Assembly (NCBI GenBank): GCA_030550235.1
Contig: JAUQPU010000003.1
Coordinates: 1 to 64,000, forward strand
Source of the DNA: Thermoproteota archaeon
GTDB taxonomy: Archaea > Thermoproteota > Nitrososphaeria_A > Caldarchaeales > Calditenuaceae
Length of the DNA stretch: 64,000 nucleotides
Reading direction: 5' to 3'
The position numbers and the translations under genes were made by a program. Positions 26,570 through 36,553 of the stretch are shown here, piece after piece. Every line of letters begins with the position of its first letter. Position 1 is the first letter of the stretch. Under the pieces are notes generated by a model that saw nothing but the letters and a program-made list of their open reading frames with translations, did not search any database and had not been told where the DNA came from.

Positions 26570-29398
26570 GTGGAGGGCTTGTCTGAGGATGTGGAGGGGC
26601 TTCTCTGCCGGCCTGTCCTCGAGGCTGTGAGGGAGAAGTTCGGCCAGCTGGTTGAGACTCAGAGGCGCGCCATCCCCCACATACTTAGGGGTGAGAATGT
26701 CCTCATAGTCTCGCCGACCGGCACGGGTAAGACTGAGGCCGCCCTCCTCCCAATCTTCAACACCATACTTACAGAACCCACAGTGGCTCCAGTGTCAACG
26801 CTATACATCACGCCTCTTAGGGCCCTGAACAGGGATCTTCTCGACAGGCTTGAGTGGTGGTCACGCCGCCTCGACATCACCGTCTCTGTCAGGCACGGCG
26901 ACACGTCACAGCGTGAGAGGAGAATACAGGCCCTCAGCCCCCCGCACATAATGATAGTCACGCCTGAGGCCCTACAGTCACTACTGATAGGGCGGGTCAT
27001 TAGGAGGAGCTTCTCAAACCTGAGGTGGGTTGTAGTTGACGAGGTCCACGAGCTAGCGACGGATAAGAGGGGTGCCCAGCTCGCAGTCGCTCTCCAAAGG
27101 CTTAGGAGGATTACCGGCAGGCCCTTCCAGGTGATTGGTCTCTCAGCCACTGTGGGTGAGCCTGAGGAGGTGGCTAGGTTTCTCGTGGATACTGGGGGGA
27201 GCTTCGTGGTCGTGGAGACTAGGATGCCGAGGGCCCTAGAGGTTGACATAGTCTTCCCCGAGCCTAGTGTCGCAGACGTGGAGATGGGCGAGGCGATAGG
27301 CGTAGCCCCCGACGTCGCAGCCAGGATGAGGACGATAATGGAGCTCGTCTCCAACCACTCCTCTACACTAATATTCACAAACACCAGGCCCCTAGCCGAG
27401 GCCCTCGCAAACAGATTCAAGGCCTGGGACGAGGCCCTCCCAGTCTCAATACACCACGGTTCACTCTCTAGGGACCACAGGGTGAGGGCTGAGAGAGACC
27501 TGAAGTATGGAGAGGTTCAGGGGCTCATCTGCACCTCAAGTCTCGAGATGGGTATAGATGTGGGACGGATTGACCTTTGCATCCAGTACAACTCTCCCAG
27601 GGAGGTGACCAGGCTTATACAGAGGATAGGGCGGAGCGGCCACAGGATAGGCGGCATAGCCCGCGGGGTGGTCCTGGTGATGGACTCAGACGATGCGCTA
27701 GAGGCCGTGGTCATAGCTAGGAGGGCTAAGGACGGAGAGCTCGAACCAGTCAGGGTTGTGAGGAACAGCTTAGACGTCGCAATGCACCAGATAGCAGGCC
27801 TGCTCCTCGAATATGGCCGCATAACACGAGAGGAGATATTGTCGCTCCTCAGAAAGGCTTACAGCTTCTCAACCCTCGAGGAGATGGACCTCAACATGCT
27901 TCTTAGATACATGGAGACACTTGGCATCGTCCGGCTTGTTGATGGGACTGTGACAAAGCCAATCAAGACTAGGCGCCTCATAGAATACTACTTCGAGAAC
28001 CTCTCAATGATTCCCGAGGAGAAGCAGTATCTAGTCGTTGAGGAGGAGACTGGAGAGCCTGTAGGGATACTTGATGAGGCCTTCGTCGCGGAGTACGGGG
28101 AGGTGGGGACACGCTTCATACTGGGCGGCAGGGCCTGGCTGATACTTAACCTCTCAGGGACTAGGATCTACGTGGCGAGGCTTAGGGAGGGTGAGGGAGC
28201 CGTGCCGTCCTGGGTTGGGGACGAGATACCTGTGCCTCTTGAAGTGGCGATGGAGGTAGGCTCCATCAGGAGGAGGTATGTGGAGGCTAGAGCTGGGGGT
28301 GTGGGGCCTGTTGAGGCGGTATCATCCCTCGCATCAGAGTACGGCGTCTCTCCAGGGTTTATGGAGAGGTCGCTGAGAGAGGTTGAGCAGCACCTCGCCC
28401 TAGGTATTCCAGTACCTACCGACAGGCAGGCAGTGGTCGAGGAGGCCGGAGAATACGTCATCCTACACATAACAGGTGGGCTGAGAATAAACAGGACACT
28501 AGCCCGCCTACTCTCAGTATACCTAGCCGAGAAGATAGGCGCCCCGGTCTCAGCCCAGTCAGACCCCTACAGGGTTGTGCTCAAGTCCAAGAACCTAGGC
28601 GCCCCAGACATTGTGAAGGCTCTCCACGAGATCGCTGACGAGGAGTTGCTTAGGAGGGCTGTCGAGTCCTCCGGTGTCTTTAGGAGGAGGCTGGTCCACG
28701 TGGCTAGGAAGATGGGTGTGGTGGGTAAGGATGTCAGCCTCCTCGATGTCAGCGCCCAGATGCTTGTAGAGTCTCTGAGGGGGACGCCGGCCTATCTCGA
28801 GGCCCTCAGATTCACGATCTTCACAGACTATGACTGGGAGGGTGTGAAGATGCTTCTGGGAAAGATAAGGGATGGGGAGATAGGTGTGGTAGCCTGTACC
28901 CTGGAAAAGCCGAGCCCCCTAGCCTCCTTAACAATCAACAGATACCAATACGAGTACGAGACCTACACGCCGGAGAGAATGCACAAGCTCATCATAAACG
29001 CCGTCCGCGGCAGGATAAACAGCGAGCTCGTCGTTCTGGCTTGCCTGGAGTGCAGGAAATACGCCGAGATGGTTGAGGTAGGTGAGATAGATAACAGGCC
29101 CCTCTGCCCCAACTGCGGCTCCAGCAGGGTGGGCGTAGTGAAGACCGCGGGGCGTGAGGATGTCGTGAGGATCATGCGTGGGAAGACAGCTGAGTCCCAG
29201 CGGTTCTGGAGGGAGGCTGAGAAGACTGCCCCACTCATCGAGAAATACGGGAAGGCCGCAGCCTTCACACTCTCAGCCCGCGGAGTAGGACCTAAGGAGG
29301 CCGAGCAGCTCCTCAGCCAAGAGCCCCGAATCTCACCCAAACTAATTGAAAAGCTGATAGAGCTGGAGAAGAAAGCCCTCCTAAGAGAGTTCAGCTAG
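26570..29398 (+). CDS. lhr: Lhr-type ATP-dependent DNA helicase
   Basis: Superfamily 2 helicase of the Lhr (large helicase-related) group, linked to DNA repair. At 942 residues it contains Walker A SPTGTGKTEA (48-57), TPLRALNRDL (motif Ia), DEVHEL (motif II), LSATVGEP (motif III), TSSLEMGIDVG (motif V) and QRIGRSGHR (motif VI), then the Lhr winged-helix and core domains. A Cys4 cluster (CLECRK near 829 and CPNCG near 849) near the C-terminus marks the archaeal subtype, followed by a helix-hairpin-helix-like end. The start is GTG at 26570. Confidence 0.93.
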   Translation: MEGLSEDVEGLLCRPVLEAVREKFGQLVETQRRAIPHILRGENVLIVSPTGTGKTEAALLPIFNTILTEPTVAPVSTLYITPLRALNRDLLDRLEWWSRRLDITVSVRHGDTSQRERRIQALSPPHIMIVTPEALQSLLIGRVIRRSFSNLRWVVVDEVHELATDKRGAQLAVALQRLRRITGRPFQVIGLSATVGEPEEVARFLVDTGGSFVVVETRMPRALEVDIVFPEPSVADVEMGEAIGVAPDVAARMRTIMELVSNHSSTLIFTNTRPLAEALANRFKAWDEALPVSIHHGSLSRDHRVRAERDLKYGEVQGLICTSSLEMGIDVGRIDLCIQYNSPREVTRLIQRIGRSGHRIGGIARGVVLVMDSDDALEAVVIARRAKDGELEPVRVVRNSLDVAMHQIAGLLLEYGRITREEILSLLRKAYSFSTLEEMDLNMLLRYMETLGIVRLVDGTVTKPIKTRRLIEYYFENLSMIPEEKQYLVVEEETGEPVGILDEAFVAEYGEVGTRFILGGRAWLILNLSGTRIYVARLREGEGAVPSWVGDEIPVPLEVAMEVGSIRRRYVEARAGGVGPVEAVSSLASEYGVSPGFMERSLREVEQHLALGIPVPTDRQAVVEEAGEYVILHITGGLRINRTLARLLSVYLAEKIGAPVSAQSDPYRVVLKSKNLGAPDIVKALHEIADEELLRRAVESSGVFRRRLVHVARKMGVVGKDVSLLDVSAQMLVESLRGTPAYLEALRFTIFTDYDWEGVKMLLGKIRDGEIGVVACTLEKPSPLASLTINRYQYEYETYTPERMHKLIINAVRGRINSELVVLACLECRKYAEMVEVGEIDNRPLCPNCGSSRVGVVKTAGREDVVRIMRGKTAESQRFWREAEKTAPLIEKYGKAAAFTLSARGVGPKEAEQLLSQEPRISPKLIEKLIELEKKALLREFS

Positions 29399-31401: not shown

Positions 31402-32010
31402 TTAATATTCTCTTTCATCTACCTCGGAGTCGGCTTTCTCAGTCTCCTTCTCCGACGACTCCATAGTGCCTAGGGATGCAAAGGCCTTGAGCAGCTCCTG
31501 CCTATCAACCTCCACTAGCGTCCTCCAACCAACTGACAGTACACCCTCCTCCGTCCTGTTGAGGTATCCCCTCCTCGAGAGCCTCTCAATAGCGGCCTCC
31601 ACCCGCCACCTCGGGTACTTGGTCTCAAGCATCTCCATAACCTCCTTCTCCGCGGCGCTACCATTCTTGGCGAGGAGATATGCGAGTGTCGCTGAGAGTA
31701 TTGCAAGCTCGTCTAGGCTGTAGCCGAGTGTCTGTATATCTGAAAGGGCGAGAGGGTCTGAGAGCACGATGTAGAAGCGAGCCCTGTCCAAATCCTCAGG
31801 CCCGGTCTCGGGATCTGGGACGATCTTGACTCTGAGGCCTATCTGCTTGAGCCTCGAGTCAAGCGAGTTTATTATCTTGGGGAAGTTTTTACCGAGTCTC
31901 CTCCTCAGCTCCCAGCCCCTAACGCCTGGAAGCCTGTGCCCAGACGCCAGAATCAGGGCTACGGCCTGCGCCATCTTCTTCTCCAGCTTACCAAGATCCT
32001 CCCCGCTCAA
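31402..32010 (-). CDS. Tandem winged-helix kite protein (ScpB / Nse3-MAGE-like)
   Basis: 202 residues with two winged-helix domains at about 12-80 and 88-170, and an acidic tail. The first ends in a strand pair around GLRVKIVPD and ARFYIVLSD. The second starts with ELAILSATLAYLLAKNGSAA, followed by EKEVMEMLE and RLSRRGYLNR. That order and spacing recall the MAGE domain of Nse3 as well as bacterial ScpB. Third gene of an operon after an SMC-like ATPase and a kleisin-like gene, 12 bases from the latter. Inferred role: kite subunit that binds the kleisin and DNA. Confidence 0.7.
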   Translation of the reverse strand: MSGEDLGKLEKKMAQAVALILASGHRLPGVRGWELRRRLGKNFPKIINSLDSRLKQIGLRVKIVPDPETGPEDLDRARFYIVLSDPLALSDIQTLGYSLDELAILSATLAYLLAKNGSAAEKEVMEMLETKYPRWRVEAAIERLSRRGYLNRTEEGVLSVGWRTLVEVDRQELLKAFASLGTMESSEKETEKADSEVDEREY

Positions 32011-32022
32011 GCCATCACCACA

Positions 32023-32745
32023 TTACCCAATGGTCACCGCGAGGGAAGTAGTCCTAGGCTCCTCCGAGACCTTCTCAGCGGCCTTAACCCAGATCTCGCC
32101 TGTCAAAGAGTTGATCCTGACATCGGCCTCCCCCCTCGAGATGAGGTAGCTTAGCAGGTAGGCCCTCACCCTCTTATCGCTCCCCATGTTGATGAAGTCC
32201 CAATACCTCACCCAGCTGCCCATCGATGAAAGCTCCGCTAAAAGCTCCCCCAGCTCACGACTAATCTGGCTCTCAATAGCCGCGTAGGCGCCTGGCTTAC
32301 CAACAGCGAGCTGCGCGCCCTCAAGACCAGCCGAGCCCCTAGTCGGCCTCGAGAGGAAGTGCTGATAACCCCTCAATAGAAGGTCAACCGAGACCTGCTC
32401 CAGCCTAACTATGGGCCTCCAGGCCTGTAGGAGTGCTGCTACTAGAGACTTTGGGTCTGACCCGATTATCTTGGAGTAGACCATCCCAGCGTCTATGAAG
32501 AGGGAAGAAGCCCTCTCTCTAATCCACCTCTGCTGAAGCCCTAGGACGACAGAGACCCTATAGAGCGTCTCAGCGTCGAGGCTGATCGTCTCAACATCCC
32601 TCTCCCTCTCAATTATCTCACGAAGCCTCGCAAGCAAGGAGGAGACGTCGACGCTGAAGGGGTCCAGCCTCCTCGACTCAATCTCGCCGAGAATCGAAAT
32701 CATCCTCATGAGCTCCTCCCTAGAAACCCTGACTACCCTGCTCAT
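32023..32745 (-). CDS. Kleisin-like protein (ScpA / Nse4-type)
   Basis: 240 residues. The N-terminal part (about 12-80) has the ScpA pattern: LDPFSVDVSSLLARL, then ISLDAETLYRVSVVLGLQQ. The C-terminal part (about 195-230) forms a small winged helix with AYLLSYLISRGEADVRI and LTGEIWVKA, similar to the ScpA/kleisin C-terminus that contacts the SMC head. It overlaps the SMC-like gene by ATGA and precedes the kite gene. Known kleisins bridge two SMC heads; I infer the same here from order and pattern. No structure prediction was run. Confidence 0.7.
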   Translation of the reverse strand: MSRVVRVSREELMRMISILGEIESRRLDPFSVDVSSLLARLREIIERERDVETISLDAETLYRVSVVLGLQQRWIRERASSLFIDAGMVYSKIIGSDPKSLVAALLQAWRPIVRLEQVSVDLLLRGYQHFLSRPTRGSAGLEGAQLAVGKPGAYAAIESQISRELGELLAELSSMGSWVRYWDFINMGSDKRVRAYLLSYLISRGEADVRINSLTGEIWVKAAEKVSEEPRTTSLAVTIG

Positions 32746-34490
32746 CCACCATCCACCGAGGTTGTGACGAAGGAGGAGCCTGCCACGTTCTGGACGATTA
32801 TGAGGTTGAAGCCGTCAGTTATGGGGAGTTTTCCTGGTGTGATGAAGAGGAACTGCGTCGAGGGGTAGGACCTCGCTATCTCTACGAGTATCTTCGTCAC
32901 CATCTCCCTGTTTAGCGGGTCGAGGTGTACGTCGAACTCGTCTACAGCCCTTATCGGGGATTTGACATAGCTCTGGAGAGCTAGGAGGAATGCGATTGTG
33001 GCCACTACTCTCTCGCCGCCGCTGTGGGTGTGGGCGTCAACTATAGTCGGCTCCATCCCCCTGAAGCCCGCCAAAAGCTCTAGGCTCGCAGTCACCGGGT
33101 CGTCCAGACCCCTAATCCTGATAAGCCCCTTCCCACCAACGGCCTCCAACAGCCTCTGATAAACCGGGTTGATATCGTCAATAATCTCCTTAAGCTTCTC
33201 CCTCCAGATCTGCCTCCTCCTCTCAACCTCCTCCATCGCCTTCTTAACATTCTCCTCAACCTGCTTGGCCCTGAGCTCAACCTCCCTAAACCTCGAGTCA
33301 GCCAAGAAATACATTGTCTCGGCATCAGGTATAACCTTGCCTAGCGATGCAATCTCGAGTGTTGTAAGCCTCAAGTCATCGAGGACGGCTGAGGGCTCTC
33401 TCTCGGTGGAGACCTCACCGCCCTTCGCGGAGGCGGCGGCCCTCTTCTCCTCAAACTCCCTCAAGAGGCTGTTAATCTCCGACTGGGCCTCAGAGACCTC
33501 CCTCTCGAGGCTCGATATCCTAAACCTCCTCACACCCTCCTCCACAGCGGCTTTCACCAATAGGTCTACGGTCTCGAGAACCTCCTCAGGGGGTCTGGAG
33601 CTGTAGAGCCTCTCGCGGATCTCCTTTCTCAGATTGCTGGCCTCGGCGCCGTATCTATCCGCCTCCTCCTCAAGCCTGGCCTTCTCCCTCAGCATCCTCT
33701 CAAGCGCCATCCTCCTCCTCTCGAGGCTCCTATCCACCTGGTGGACTAGGCTCCACGCATACTCCAGCTCAAGCCTCATCCTCCTCTCCTCCAGCTCCCT
33801 CAGCTGCTGAAGCTTCTGAAGCTCCCTCCGCCAATACTCCACAGCCTCGCCGGCCTCAGATAATAGACGCTTAACAGAAGACTCCTCAGACCTAAGGCTG
33901 TTAAGCCTGCTCTCAGCCTCTAGGAGCCTCTCTCTCAGATTGGAGAGGCCGACGGCATCCTCCATCGATCGGAGCTTCTCGACATTATCCCTGGCAGCGA
34001 AGTTCTCAATCATGTTCTGGTGCATGATTACGAGGGCGTTGTTGGGGTTAATTCCCAGCTTCCGCAACAATTCCTCAAGCTCAGCCTTAGGGGTAAACCT
34101 GTTATTGACATAGTGCCAGTATTCTCCGCTCTTTTTAATGAAGCGAGTGATCGTGATTTCATCGGACTTGATGGAGGGGACTGGCCTCTCGCCGTCAACC
34201 GGCGAGTTGTCCAAGACTACTGTGAGCCTAGCAGCCTCCCTCCCTCTCCTTATAAGGTCGCTGAGCCGCTGCCCCCTCTCTGTATAGGTCTGCCCCAGGG
34301 CGACGGATAGGCCGAGAAGGATTGAGGACTTGCCCGAGCCGTTGGGGCCTGTGATAACGTTCAGCCCGGGTTCAAGCCTGATTCGGGAGTACTCATGAGA
34401 CATGAAGTTCTCGAGGATAACCTCGCGTATATGCGTAGGCCTCGCCTCCACCTCCAGCTGCCCCAGCCGGGTCCTAGCCAACCTCTCCAA
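32742..34490 (-). CDS. Short SMC-like ATPase with Smc5/6-type head
   Basis: 582 residues, about half the length of a true SMC. Walker A GPNGSGKSS (48-56), Q-loop MHQNMIENF (156-164), coiled coil about 183-296, a short middle without a recognisable hinge (297-325), coiled coil about 326-440, signature HSGGERVV (489-496), Walker B/D-loop IRAVDEFDVHLDPLN (513-527). The strand QFLFITPGKLP (546-556) replaces the usual His-switch with TP, and the ENFMSHE start and DEFD box also recall eukaryotic Smc5/Smc6 rather than Rad50 or condensin SMC. The start is TTG at 34490. First gene of the operon with kleisin-like and kite-like genes. Confidence 0.85.
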   Translation of the reverse strand: MERLARTRLGQLEVEARPTHIREVILENFMSHEYSRIRLEPGLNVITGPNGSGKSSILLGLSVALGQTYTERGQRLSDLIRRGREAARLTVVLDNSPVDGERPVPSIKSDEITITRFIKKSGEYWHYVNNRFTPKAELEELLRKLGINPNNALVIMHQNMIENFAARDNVEKLRSMEDAVGLSNLRERLLEAESRLNSLRSEESSVKRLLSEAGEAVEYWRRELQKLQQLRELEERRMRLELEYAWSLVHQVDRSLERRRMALERMLREKARLEEEADRYGAEASNLRKEIRERLYSSRPPEEVLETVDLLVKAAVEEGVRRFRISSLEREVSEAQSEINSLLREFEEKRAAASAKGGEVSTEREPSAVLDDLRLTTLEIASLGKVIPDAETMYFLADSRFREVELRAKQVEENVKKAMEEVERRRQIWREKLKEIIDDINPVYQRLLEAVGGKGLIRIRGLDDPVTASLELLAGFRGMEPTIVDAHTHSGGERVVATIAFLLALQSYVKSPIRAVDEFDVHLDPLNREMVTKILVEIARSYPSTQFLFITPGKLPITDGFNLIIVQNVAGSSFVTTSVDGG

Positions 34491-34651: not shown

Positions 34652-35095
34652 ATGGAGCTGGACGTAAAGACGGCGCTTGAGCGGTTCAGGATGTTCATCA
34701 TCTATAACACGTGCCTCAGCCTTATCCCGAAGGGGTATTTGAGGGACCCGACGATCTTCCCGGAGAGGGACCCGGATAAGGGCGAGATATACGTTGAGGC
34801 GGCCAGCAAGATCGAGTTGGCCAAGATCAGGGATATCAGGTTCGTGAAAGTTGCCGATATACTCGGCGTGATATACAAATCGAAGACGGGAAACACTAAC
34901 CTTAAGTGGAGGCAGATAAGGGGAAATATAGGGAGGCTGACAGGCGTGGCCTCCCCAAACTCCATAGTCAACCTTCTAGAGGCGAAGGTCATCACAAGGG
35001 AATACCTAGAGGACTATCTCAAACAGAAGTCTGAGCCCCCGAAGACAGAGGCCGAGGGTCAGGAAACACAAGATACCACTTCAACACCACAGTAA
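34652..35095 (+). CDS. Hypothetical soluble protein divergent from the SMC operon
   Basis: 147 residues; family not recognised. It is charged and helical, with an aromatic/hydrophobic start (ERFRMFIIYNTC) and a disordered tail rich in Glu, Thr and Pro from about residue 125. The TATA box at 34624-34632 supports the ATG. It shares its promoter region with the SMC/kleisin/kite operon, so a linked role is possible but unproven. Confidence 0.6.
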   Translation: MELDVKTALERFRMFIIYNTCLSLIPKGYLRDPTIFPERDPDKGEIYVEAASKIELAKIRDIRFVKVADILGVIYKSKTGNTNLKWRQIRGNIGRLTGVASPNSIVNLLEAKVITREYLEDYLKQKSEPPKTEAEGQETQDTTSTPQ

Positions 35096-36043: not shown

Positions 36044-36553
36044 CTATGGCCACTTCATTAGTAAGTTGCGGCACCGGGGGCAGGGCTCCACTCCTTTCAT
36101 GTCTGTATCGAGGATGGTGTTGCTGAAGTACATGACGCATCTTGGGTTGGGGCAGTGTTTTAGGCCTAGCATGTGTCCAACCTCGTGTATGACCTCCTTC
36201 TTCAGCCTCTCAATGAATCTCTCAGGTCTAGGGTGTTTCAGCCTATAGGTCGAGACCACCGCGGACTTGTCCATGGCTAGGCCGAAGCAGAAGTTATATC
36301 CGTCAAAGTATAGGTCGAGCTCTGTAATGTGTAGGTGGTAATATTCCCTGTTAGGAAGCTCTCTTGACAGGGCATCCACCAGCCTCATAGCCTCCACCTG
36401 CCTCCGCACCTGGTCGAGGAACCGCGCCGCAGGGTCCTCCTCAAGCTCCAGCTCCACGGCTGATAGCCCGTAGACGGCGGCCGCCACCACGGCGGCCTCC
36501 CCCCTTTCTCGGCTGATAGTCTTAGGCGAGGAGACGACCAGTCTCGCCGGCAA
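36044..36553 (-). CDS. amzA: Archaemetzincin
   Basis: Zinc metalloprotease of the archaemetzincin family. The 169-residue protein has the full signature: HEVGHMLGLKHC (His123, Glu124, His127, His133, Cys134), then Cys139, Met141, and the second zinc site pair Cys158/Cys161 (CPRC). The N-terminal half supplies the usual alpha/beta fold, with LHITELDLY. The family's physiological substrates are unknown. No signal peptide, so it is cytoplasmic. Confidence 0.93.
   Translation of the reverse strand: MPARLVVSSPKTISRERGEAAVVAAAVYGLSAVELELEEDPAARFLDQVRRQVEAMRLVDALSRELPNREYYHLHITELDLYFDGYNFCFGLAMDKSAVVSTYRLKHPRPERFIERLKKEVIHEVGHMLGLKHCPNPRCVMYFSNTILDTDMKGVEPCPRCRNLLMKWP

Follow-up and report, generated by a model that had tools for sequence, protein, structure and literature searches.

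Eukaryotic Smc5/6 combines two SMC (structural maintenance of chromosomes) ATPases, Smc5 and Smc6, with the kleisin Nse4 and the kites Nse1 and Nse3. Smc-ScpA-ScpB follows the same SMC–kleisin–kite logic and is encoded as an operon, and coalescin/Sph proteins (ASRPs) are short archaeal SMC-like ATPases (PMC9389158). According to PMC9389158, which cites Yoshinaga and Inagaki 2021, a subset of archaeal SMCs shares a clade with Smc5 and Smc6. Archaeal Smc complexes have generally been argued to lack a working kite (PMC7055376). Here we describe an operon at positions 31402-34490 of the window, which is the whole 64,000-nucleotide stretch of a Thermoproteota archaeon (contig JAUQPU010000003.1) that was analysed. 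This operon probably encodes an archaeal SMC–kleisin–kite complex of the Smc5/6 lineage that lacks a hinge and would act as an ATP-gated clamp, likely in fork or recombination repair.

The operon consists of three genes:
32742-34490, minus strand: SMC ATPase of Smc5/6 type with short arms and no hinge (582 amino acids, TTG start)
32023-32745, minus strand: Nse4-like kleisin (240 amino acids, ATG start) with an N-terminal helical domain, a middle linker and a C-terminal winged helix
31402-32010, minus strand: kite, a predicted Nse1/Nse3(MAGE)-like tandem winged helix (202 amino acids, TTG start)

An earlier interpretation of the same DNA, made without database searches (the sequence-only reading), had described three minus-strand genes with this layout, and the open reading frames are found as it placed them. 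The kleisin start overlaps the SMC stop (ATGA), and a 12-bp gap separates kleisin and kite. The TTG starts of the SMC and kite genes are uncertain; in the AlphaFold2 model, the SMC begins with 14 disordered residues.

The source genome (Thermoproteota, 1.43 Mb), that of an archaeon from a hot spring, has close relatives in Candidatus Calditenuaceae, order Caldarchaeales. On another contig it encodes a canonical operon of SMC (1151 amino acids), ScpA (240 amino acids) and ScpB (215 amino acids; Pfam SMC_ScpB, E-value 3.8e-34). The 31402-34490 operon is thus a second, separate SMC set. It contains the genome's only short Smc5/6-type SMC gene, and the remaining SMC is canonical, so the Smc5–Smc6 heterodimer has no counterpart here; compared with eukaryotic Smc5/6, the archaeal set has one SMC gene and one kite gene. 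At two canonical SMC loci (L148 in genome G055 and L149 in genome G046), a recognisable ScpA or ScpB does not lie beside the SMC gene.

The SMC head carries two blocks of ATPase motifs:
34323-34349, minus strand: Walker A motif GPNGSGKSS, residues 48-56 (from the sequence and the homologue alignment)
32760-33140, minus strand: C-terminal ATPase lobe with the SGGER signature, the DEFD Walker B motif and ITPG at the His-switch position (from the sequence)

All of the motifs quoted in the sequence-only reading are present: ENFMSHE, GPNGSGKSS, SGGER, DEFDVHLDP and, at the His-switch site, QFLFITPG. Walker A residues G48, P49, N50, G51, G53, K54, S55 and S56 are invariant in 39 homologues. The ITPG segment aligns with QYFLITP of Smc5 and QTIIITP of Smc6. 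The window SMC matches Pfam SMC_N (2.3e-32) and reaches 163 bits with the NCBIfam SMC_prok_A model, against a cut-off of 729, which sets it apart from canonical SMC heads.

Searched against solved structures, the SMC profile ranks yeast Smc5 (6.6e-66) and yeast Smc6 (2.5e-64) first, followed by human Smc6 and human Smc5. Canonical Smc (2.1e-52) and the condensin and cohesin SMCs rank lower, and Rad50 far below. Because coil length could bias a whole-protein ranking, we built head-only profiles from 8 short and 8 canonical archaeal SMCs. The short-SMC head profile scores Smc5 at 184 (yeast) and 151 (human) bits and Smc6 at 141 (yeast) and 127 (human) bits; canonical archaeal Smc heads reach at most 134 bits and condensin and cohesin heads at most 122. 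The canonical head profile gives up to 431 bits for canonical heads, 78 for Smc5 and 57 for human Smc6.

In a maximum-likelihood tree (57 heads, 324 columns, LG+C20+F+G4), the short SMCs, Smc5 and Smc6 fall into one clade (support 100/99), with separate clades for canonical SMC (98/95) and Rad50-like proteins (100/99). The clade of short SMCs and Smc5/6 keeps a support of 100/98 after removal of the two longest outgroup branches. Approximately unbiased (AU) tests reject a position of Smc5/6 outside the short and canonical SMCs (p = 0.0134) and a grouping of Smc5/6 with canonical SMCs alone (p = 0.0086). Tree, AU tests and head-only profiles thus agree with the earlier proposal that this head is nearer to Smc5/6 than to condensin SMC or Rad50.

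Between the head lobes, the SMC is modelled as two short coils:
33603-33944, minus strand: outgoing coil, an unbroken helix of 114 residues, 183-296 (AlphaFold2, conservation)
33591-33602, minus strand: arm tip, a four-residue turn (297-300) at the usual SMC hinge site (AlphaFold2)
33141-33590, minus strand: return coil and joint, helices 301-356, 366-382 and 390-450 (AlphaFold2, Foldseek)

The AlphaFold2 model was built with 39 homologues (mean predicted local distance difference test score 86.9), and its best Foldseek match is 5xei, a structure comprising an Smc head together with its coil and joint. The coils had been put at about 110 residues each; this holds for the outgoing coil, and the return coil differs in running from 301 to 450 with breaks. 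In 59 homologues, 235-345 residues lie between the head lobes; three canonical SMCs have about 800 there, and the shorter length leaves no room for a hinge. The short SMC is thus without a hinge, as had been suspected. This conclusion rests on the length and on the modelled turn because the Pfam SMC_hinge test is uninformative, the genome's own canonical SMC being likewise unmatched. A CxxC zinc hook is absent from the 59 short-SMC homologues. Eukaryotic Smc5/6 has long arms and a hinge, whereas the archaeal arms are about 115 residues long.

The head-proximal coils are highly conserved (W220, W246, R364, Y394, R425 and W429), with W220 invariant and W246 conserved in the head-proximal half of the outgoing coil. 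Residues 271-310, around the arm tip, have the lowest conservation in the whole SMC. Together, the variable tip and the conserved neck and joint argue for partner binding close to the heads and for a tip that serves only as a cap. A conserved arm-tip patch as a substitute dimer interface is disfavoured by the same pattern.

The kleisin gene product has no Pfam family match when the window protein is searched alone. A profile of 45 members identifies yeast Nse4 first in the PDB (2.6e-5), with human EID3 at 6.3e-5 and ScpA next among the plausible matches at 0.12. Pfam Nse4_C matches 22 of the 45 homologues (best 5.3e-6). When six whole genomes were searched with Nse4_C, the kleisin was the sole match in each of five, with all matches below the curated cut-off. 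The protein is also related to ScpA of related genomes (hhalign probability 87.7%, E-value 3.4e-6), while ScpB control comparisons remain below 1%. In the AlphaFold2 prediction, helices form the N-terminal domain, the linker has low confidence and the C-terminal part folds as a winged helix, located at:
32056-32289, minus strand: C-terminal winged helix of the kleisin, residues 153-230 (AlphaFold2, Foldseek)

The top Foldseek match of the whole model is Nse4 of the Smc5/6 holocomplex (probability 0.99). The winged helix matches ScpA-C and Scc1-C (probability 0.99-1.00; template modelling score TMt 0.62-0.71, with ScpA-C at 0.68-0.71) and is expected to bind the SMC cap. The ScpA/kleisin-like protein of the sequence-only reading is thus supported as a kleisin by profile, alignment to ScpA and structure comparison, and is refined to Nse4-like: judged from profiles and the predicted fold, it is a kleisin of the type found in Smc5/6.

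The kite profile, searched against solved structures, has a MAGE domain (0.0057) and two NSE1 entries (0.009 and 0.012) as its top three matches. The window kite alone matches Pfam SMC_Nse1 (6.5e-4) and MAGE (8.6e-3), and among 38 homologues MAGE matches 15 and SMC_Nse1 matches 12. A MAGE search of the whole source genome returned the 31402-32010 kite as its sole match. No ScpB signal was detected by hhalign (probability 0.6% against 17 ScpB proteins of relatives), which rules out ScpB as the nearest kite. These values are each marginal yet concordant, and they support an Nse1/MAGE-type kite, as in Smc5/6. The Nse3/MAGE-like assignment made earlier is therefore upheld at the level of sequence profiles.

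An alternative explanation is that the operon is a duplicated, shortened condensin, that is, an Smc-ScpAB paralogue whose likeness to Smc5/6 reflects convergence of fast-evolving heads. The presence of a canonical SMC-ScpA-ScpB operon in the same genome and the relationship between the kleisin and ScpA are consistent with such an origin, and the two systems share their operon logic. The SMC head nevertheless belongs to another clade: the tree and AU tests reject a canonical grouping, and the reciprocal head profiles clearly separate the two. The hinge and the ScpB-type kite are features of Smc-ScpAB; here the kite is Nse1/MAGE-like, and the best database matches of the kleisin are to Nse4. We thus regard a condensin paralogue as unlikely and as largely refuted already.

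A scan of genome contigs identified 63 homologous loci, plus one bacterial chance match. These loci span Caldarchaeales, Hadarchaeota, Geothermarchaeota, Korarchaeia (Methanodesulfokora), Bathyarchaeota and deep Thaumarchaeota. The SMC gene is followed by the kleisin gene on the same strand, with a gap within about 100 bp, at 58 of 59 loci, and kleisin and kite are adjacent in all 55 of 55 pairs. Such adjacency indicates that the three-gene layout is not due to chance. A few lineages are rearranged, with the SMC several kb from the kleisin and kite in genomes G012, G015 and G216.

We also searched 397 Thermoproteota genomes (completeness at least 85%) with the three profiles. The SMC, kleisin and kite profiles each find 153 of the 397 genomes and 80 of 171 genera. 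A comparison of the three match lists places all three genes together in about 151 genomes and one or two of them in about four (G074, G154, G369 and G383). The genes are nearly always single copy per genome. Outside this sample, the kleisin occurs in 21 of 28 genomes of the Hadarchaeum phylum (Hadarchaeota). Counts and synteny thus substantiate the expectation that the three genes co-occur in relatives.

This distribution bears on a second alternative, a Wadjet- or Lamassu-like SMC system for defence against plasmids or phages in place of a housekeeping complex. Wadjet and other SMC complexes have roles in defence (PMC10586767), and PADLOC reports head matches to LmuB and mads_3. Unlike mobile defence islands, the operon is single copy in almost all genomes that carry it and occurs across whole lineages, with stable gene order and neighbours. 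The kleisin and kite have no PADLOC match, and the operon has no nuclease subunit. A defence or viral origin was rejected, since PADLOC and PHROGs gave generic head matches only; we consider a defence role improbable.

It is highly improbable that the SMC belongs to the Rad50 or coalescin (ASRP/ClsN) type and that its neighbours are unrelated; the tree and the absence of a hook already refute this. The SMC resembles the ASRPs in being a short archaeal SMC-like protein of similar length and has weak NCBIfam matches to Rad50 and ASRP, but it lacks the zinc hook of ASRPs, falls outside the Rad50 clade, scores 54.5 bits with the ASRP/ClsN model against a cut-off of 300, and belongs to a conserved three-gene set, whereas ASRPs have no conserved neighbours (PMC9389158). 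A 660-amino-acid SMC-like protein at another locus (L163:654-2633, minus strand) has one CPTC motif and a very long branch near Rad50 and is possibly an ASRP/coalescin relative.

The sequence-only reading had proposed a minimal archaeal Smc5/6-type complex. The analyses support this, in that a grouping with Rad50 or ClsN-like proteins, a missing kleisin fold and a lack of co-occurrence were all unobserved.

A possible cellular context for the Smc5/6-type complex is suggested by a neighbouring gene:
26570-29398, plus strand: Lhr-type (aLhr1-like) helicase, a convergent neighbour outside the operon (942 amino acids; Pfam DEAD, Helicase_C, WH_Lhr and DEAD_assoc)

Two genes separate the helicase from the operon in the window. 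Its C-terminal Cys4 is invariant in 15 homologues, and an Lhr core with a C-terminal Cys4 is the architecture given for aLhr1 in the relevant part of PMC8301817. At 31 of 48 loci, a convergent helicase of about 940 amino acids is encoded no more than 4 kb from the kite gene, often with overlapping ends. These helicase-linked loci come from Caldarchaeales, Hadarchaeia, Korarchaeia, Geothermarchaeota and Nitrososphaeria; seven further loci are too short to judge. Archaeal Lhr targets replication forks (PMC7437997), and this targeting, together with the helicase neighbourhood, is the main ground for proposing a role in fork or recombination repair. The genomic context of aLhr1 and aLhr2 is analysed in PMC8301817, and an SMC link does not appear in the portion of that paper concerned.

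In known SMC complexes, the kleisin bridges two SMCs by contacting one at its neck and the other at its cap, and DNA is clamped by the kites together with the engaged heads (PMC10512200). Every part needed for such a clamp is encoded in the operon, and the large arm–hinge ring is absent; from this we infer that the complex is an ATP-gated clamp with a 2:1:2 composition of SMC, kleisin and kite. In this model, the heads of two short SMCs would come together around ATP. A single Nse4-like kleisin would join them, with its N-terminal helices on one neck and its C-terminal winged helix on the other cap, and the kleisin linker would carry a kite dimer that would keep DNA atop the engaged heads. Since the arms end in a simple turn that offers no second (hinge) closure, the complex would act mainly as an ATP-gated DNA clamp and not as a large two-compartment ring. 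Stalled forks or recombination intermediates are its likeliest substrates, which it would hold or remodel with or beside the fork-specific Lhr helicase. The ordinary SMC-ScpAB would meanwhile handle bulk chromosome organisation.

Several observations weigh against this interpretation. First, the kite E-values are marginal and lie under the Pfam curated cut-off. Second, the kleisin model has a low predicted template modelling score (pTM 0.37), because a loose linker joins its two domains. Third, the eukaryotic branches of the head tree are long and represent yeast and human only, two species per subunit; for this reason we claim no branching order inside the clade of Smc5/6 and short SMCs. Smc1-4 enter the profile scores only and are outside the head tree. 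Finally, 17 of the 48 loci (each with at least 1.5 kb downstream) have no adjoining helicase, and where present the helicase gene is convergent, not co-transcribed with the operon.

Other conserved genes flank the operon. A 147-amino-acid orphan (34652-35095, plus strand) is divergent from the SMC gene, is conserved at about 20 Caldarchaeales loci and has no family match. An archaemetzincin-like protease (36044-36553, minus strand; Pfam Peptidase_M54, 1.8e-23) lies upstream of the operon, as it does at many Caldarchaeales loci. A different orphan of about 230 amino acids (MVLVAKIFE...) is divergent from the SMC gene at L089:5213-5923 and L080:5268-5945 (both minus strand) and at about 10 other loci. 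Its hosts belong to Hadarchaeota, Korarchaeia, Geothermarchaeota and deep Thaumarchaeota, and it has no relative in Pfam, NCBIfam or PDB.

The archaeal operon thus shares with eukaryotic Smc5/6 the head clade, the DEFD and ITP motifs, an Nse4-type kleisin and an Nse1/MAGE-type kite. The 'SMC5/6-related' SMCs of Yoshinaga and Inagaki 2021, as represented in the citing part of PMC9389158, probably include the short-SMC family; they are described there by head phylogeny, without a kleisin/kite operon, hinge loss or a helicase link. The head affinity to Smc5/6 is thus already published; the open-licence literature gave no account of the Nse4/kite operon, of the absent hinge or of the link to the helicase. 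That literature likewise yielded no description of an archaeal Nse4, archaeal Nse1/3-type kites or a hinge-free member, and an earlier account elsewhere is possible.

It is reasonably likely that eukaryotic Smc5/6 has its direct prokaryotic sister in this operon, that an SMC, an Nse4 and an Nse1/3-type kite were joined before eukaryotes arose, and that a hinge-free clamp with a fork helicase exists in many living archaea. To our knowledge, well-studied SMC complexes are all drawn as hinge-closed rings, and most loop-extrusion models use the hinge. A hinge-free SMC–kleisin–kite set kept across many archaeal lineages makes the role of the hinge directly testable, and the subunits, being small and derived from thermophiles, should suit structural work. 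Canonical SMC-ScpAB and an Smc5/6-type lineage coexist in one prokaryote, as in eukaryotes. On the origin of Smc5/6, an archaeal ancestry now extends beyond the SMC head to the kleisin and the kite. This agrees with the proposal of an Smc5/6 lineage that diverged before kites were replaced by hawks in cohesin and condensin (PMC5228436). These observations suggest that Smc5/6 predates eukaryotes and that the hinge can be dispensable for an SMC machine.

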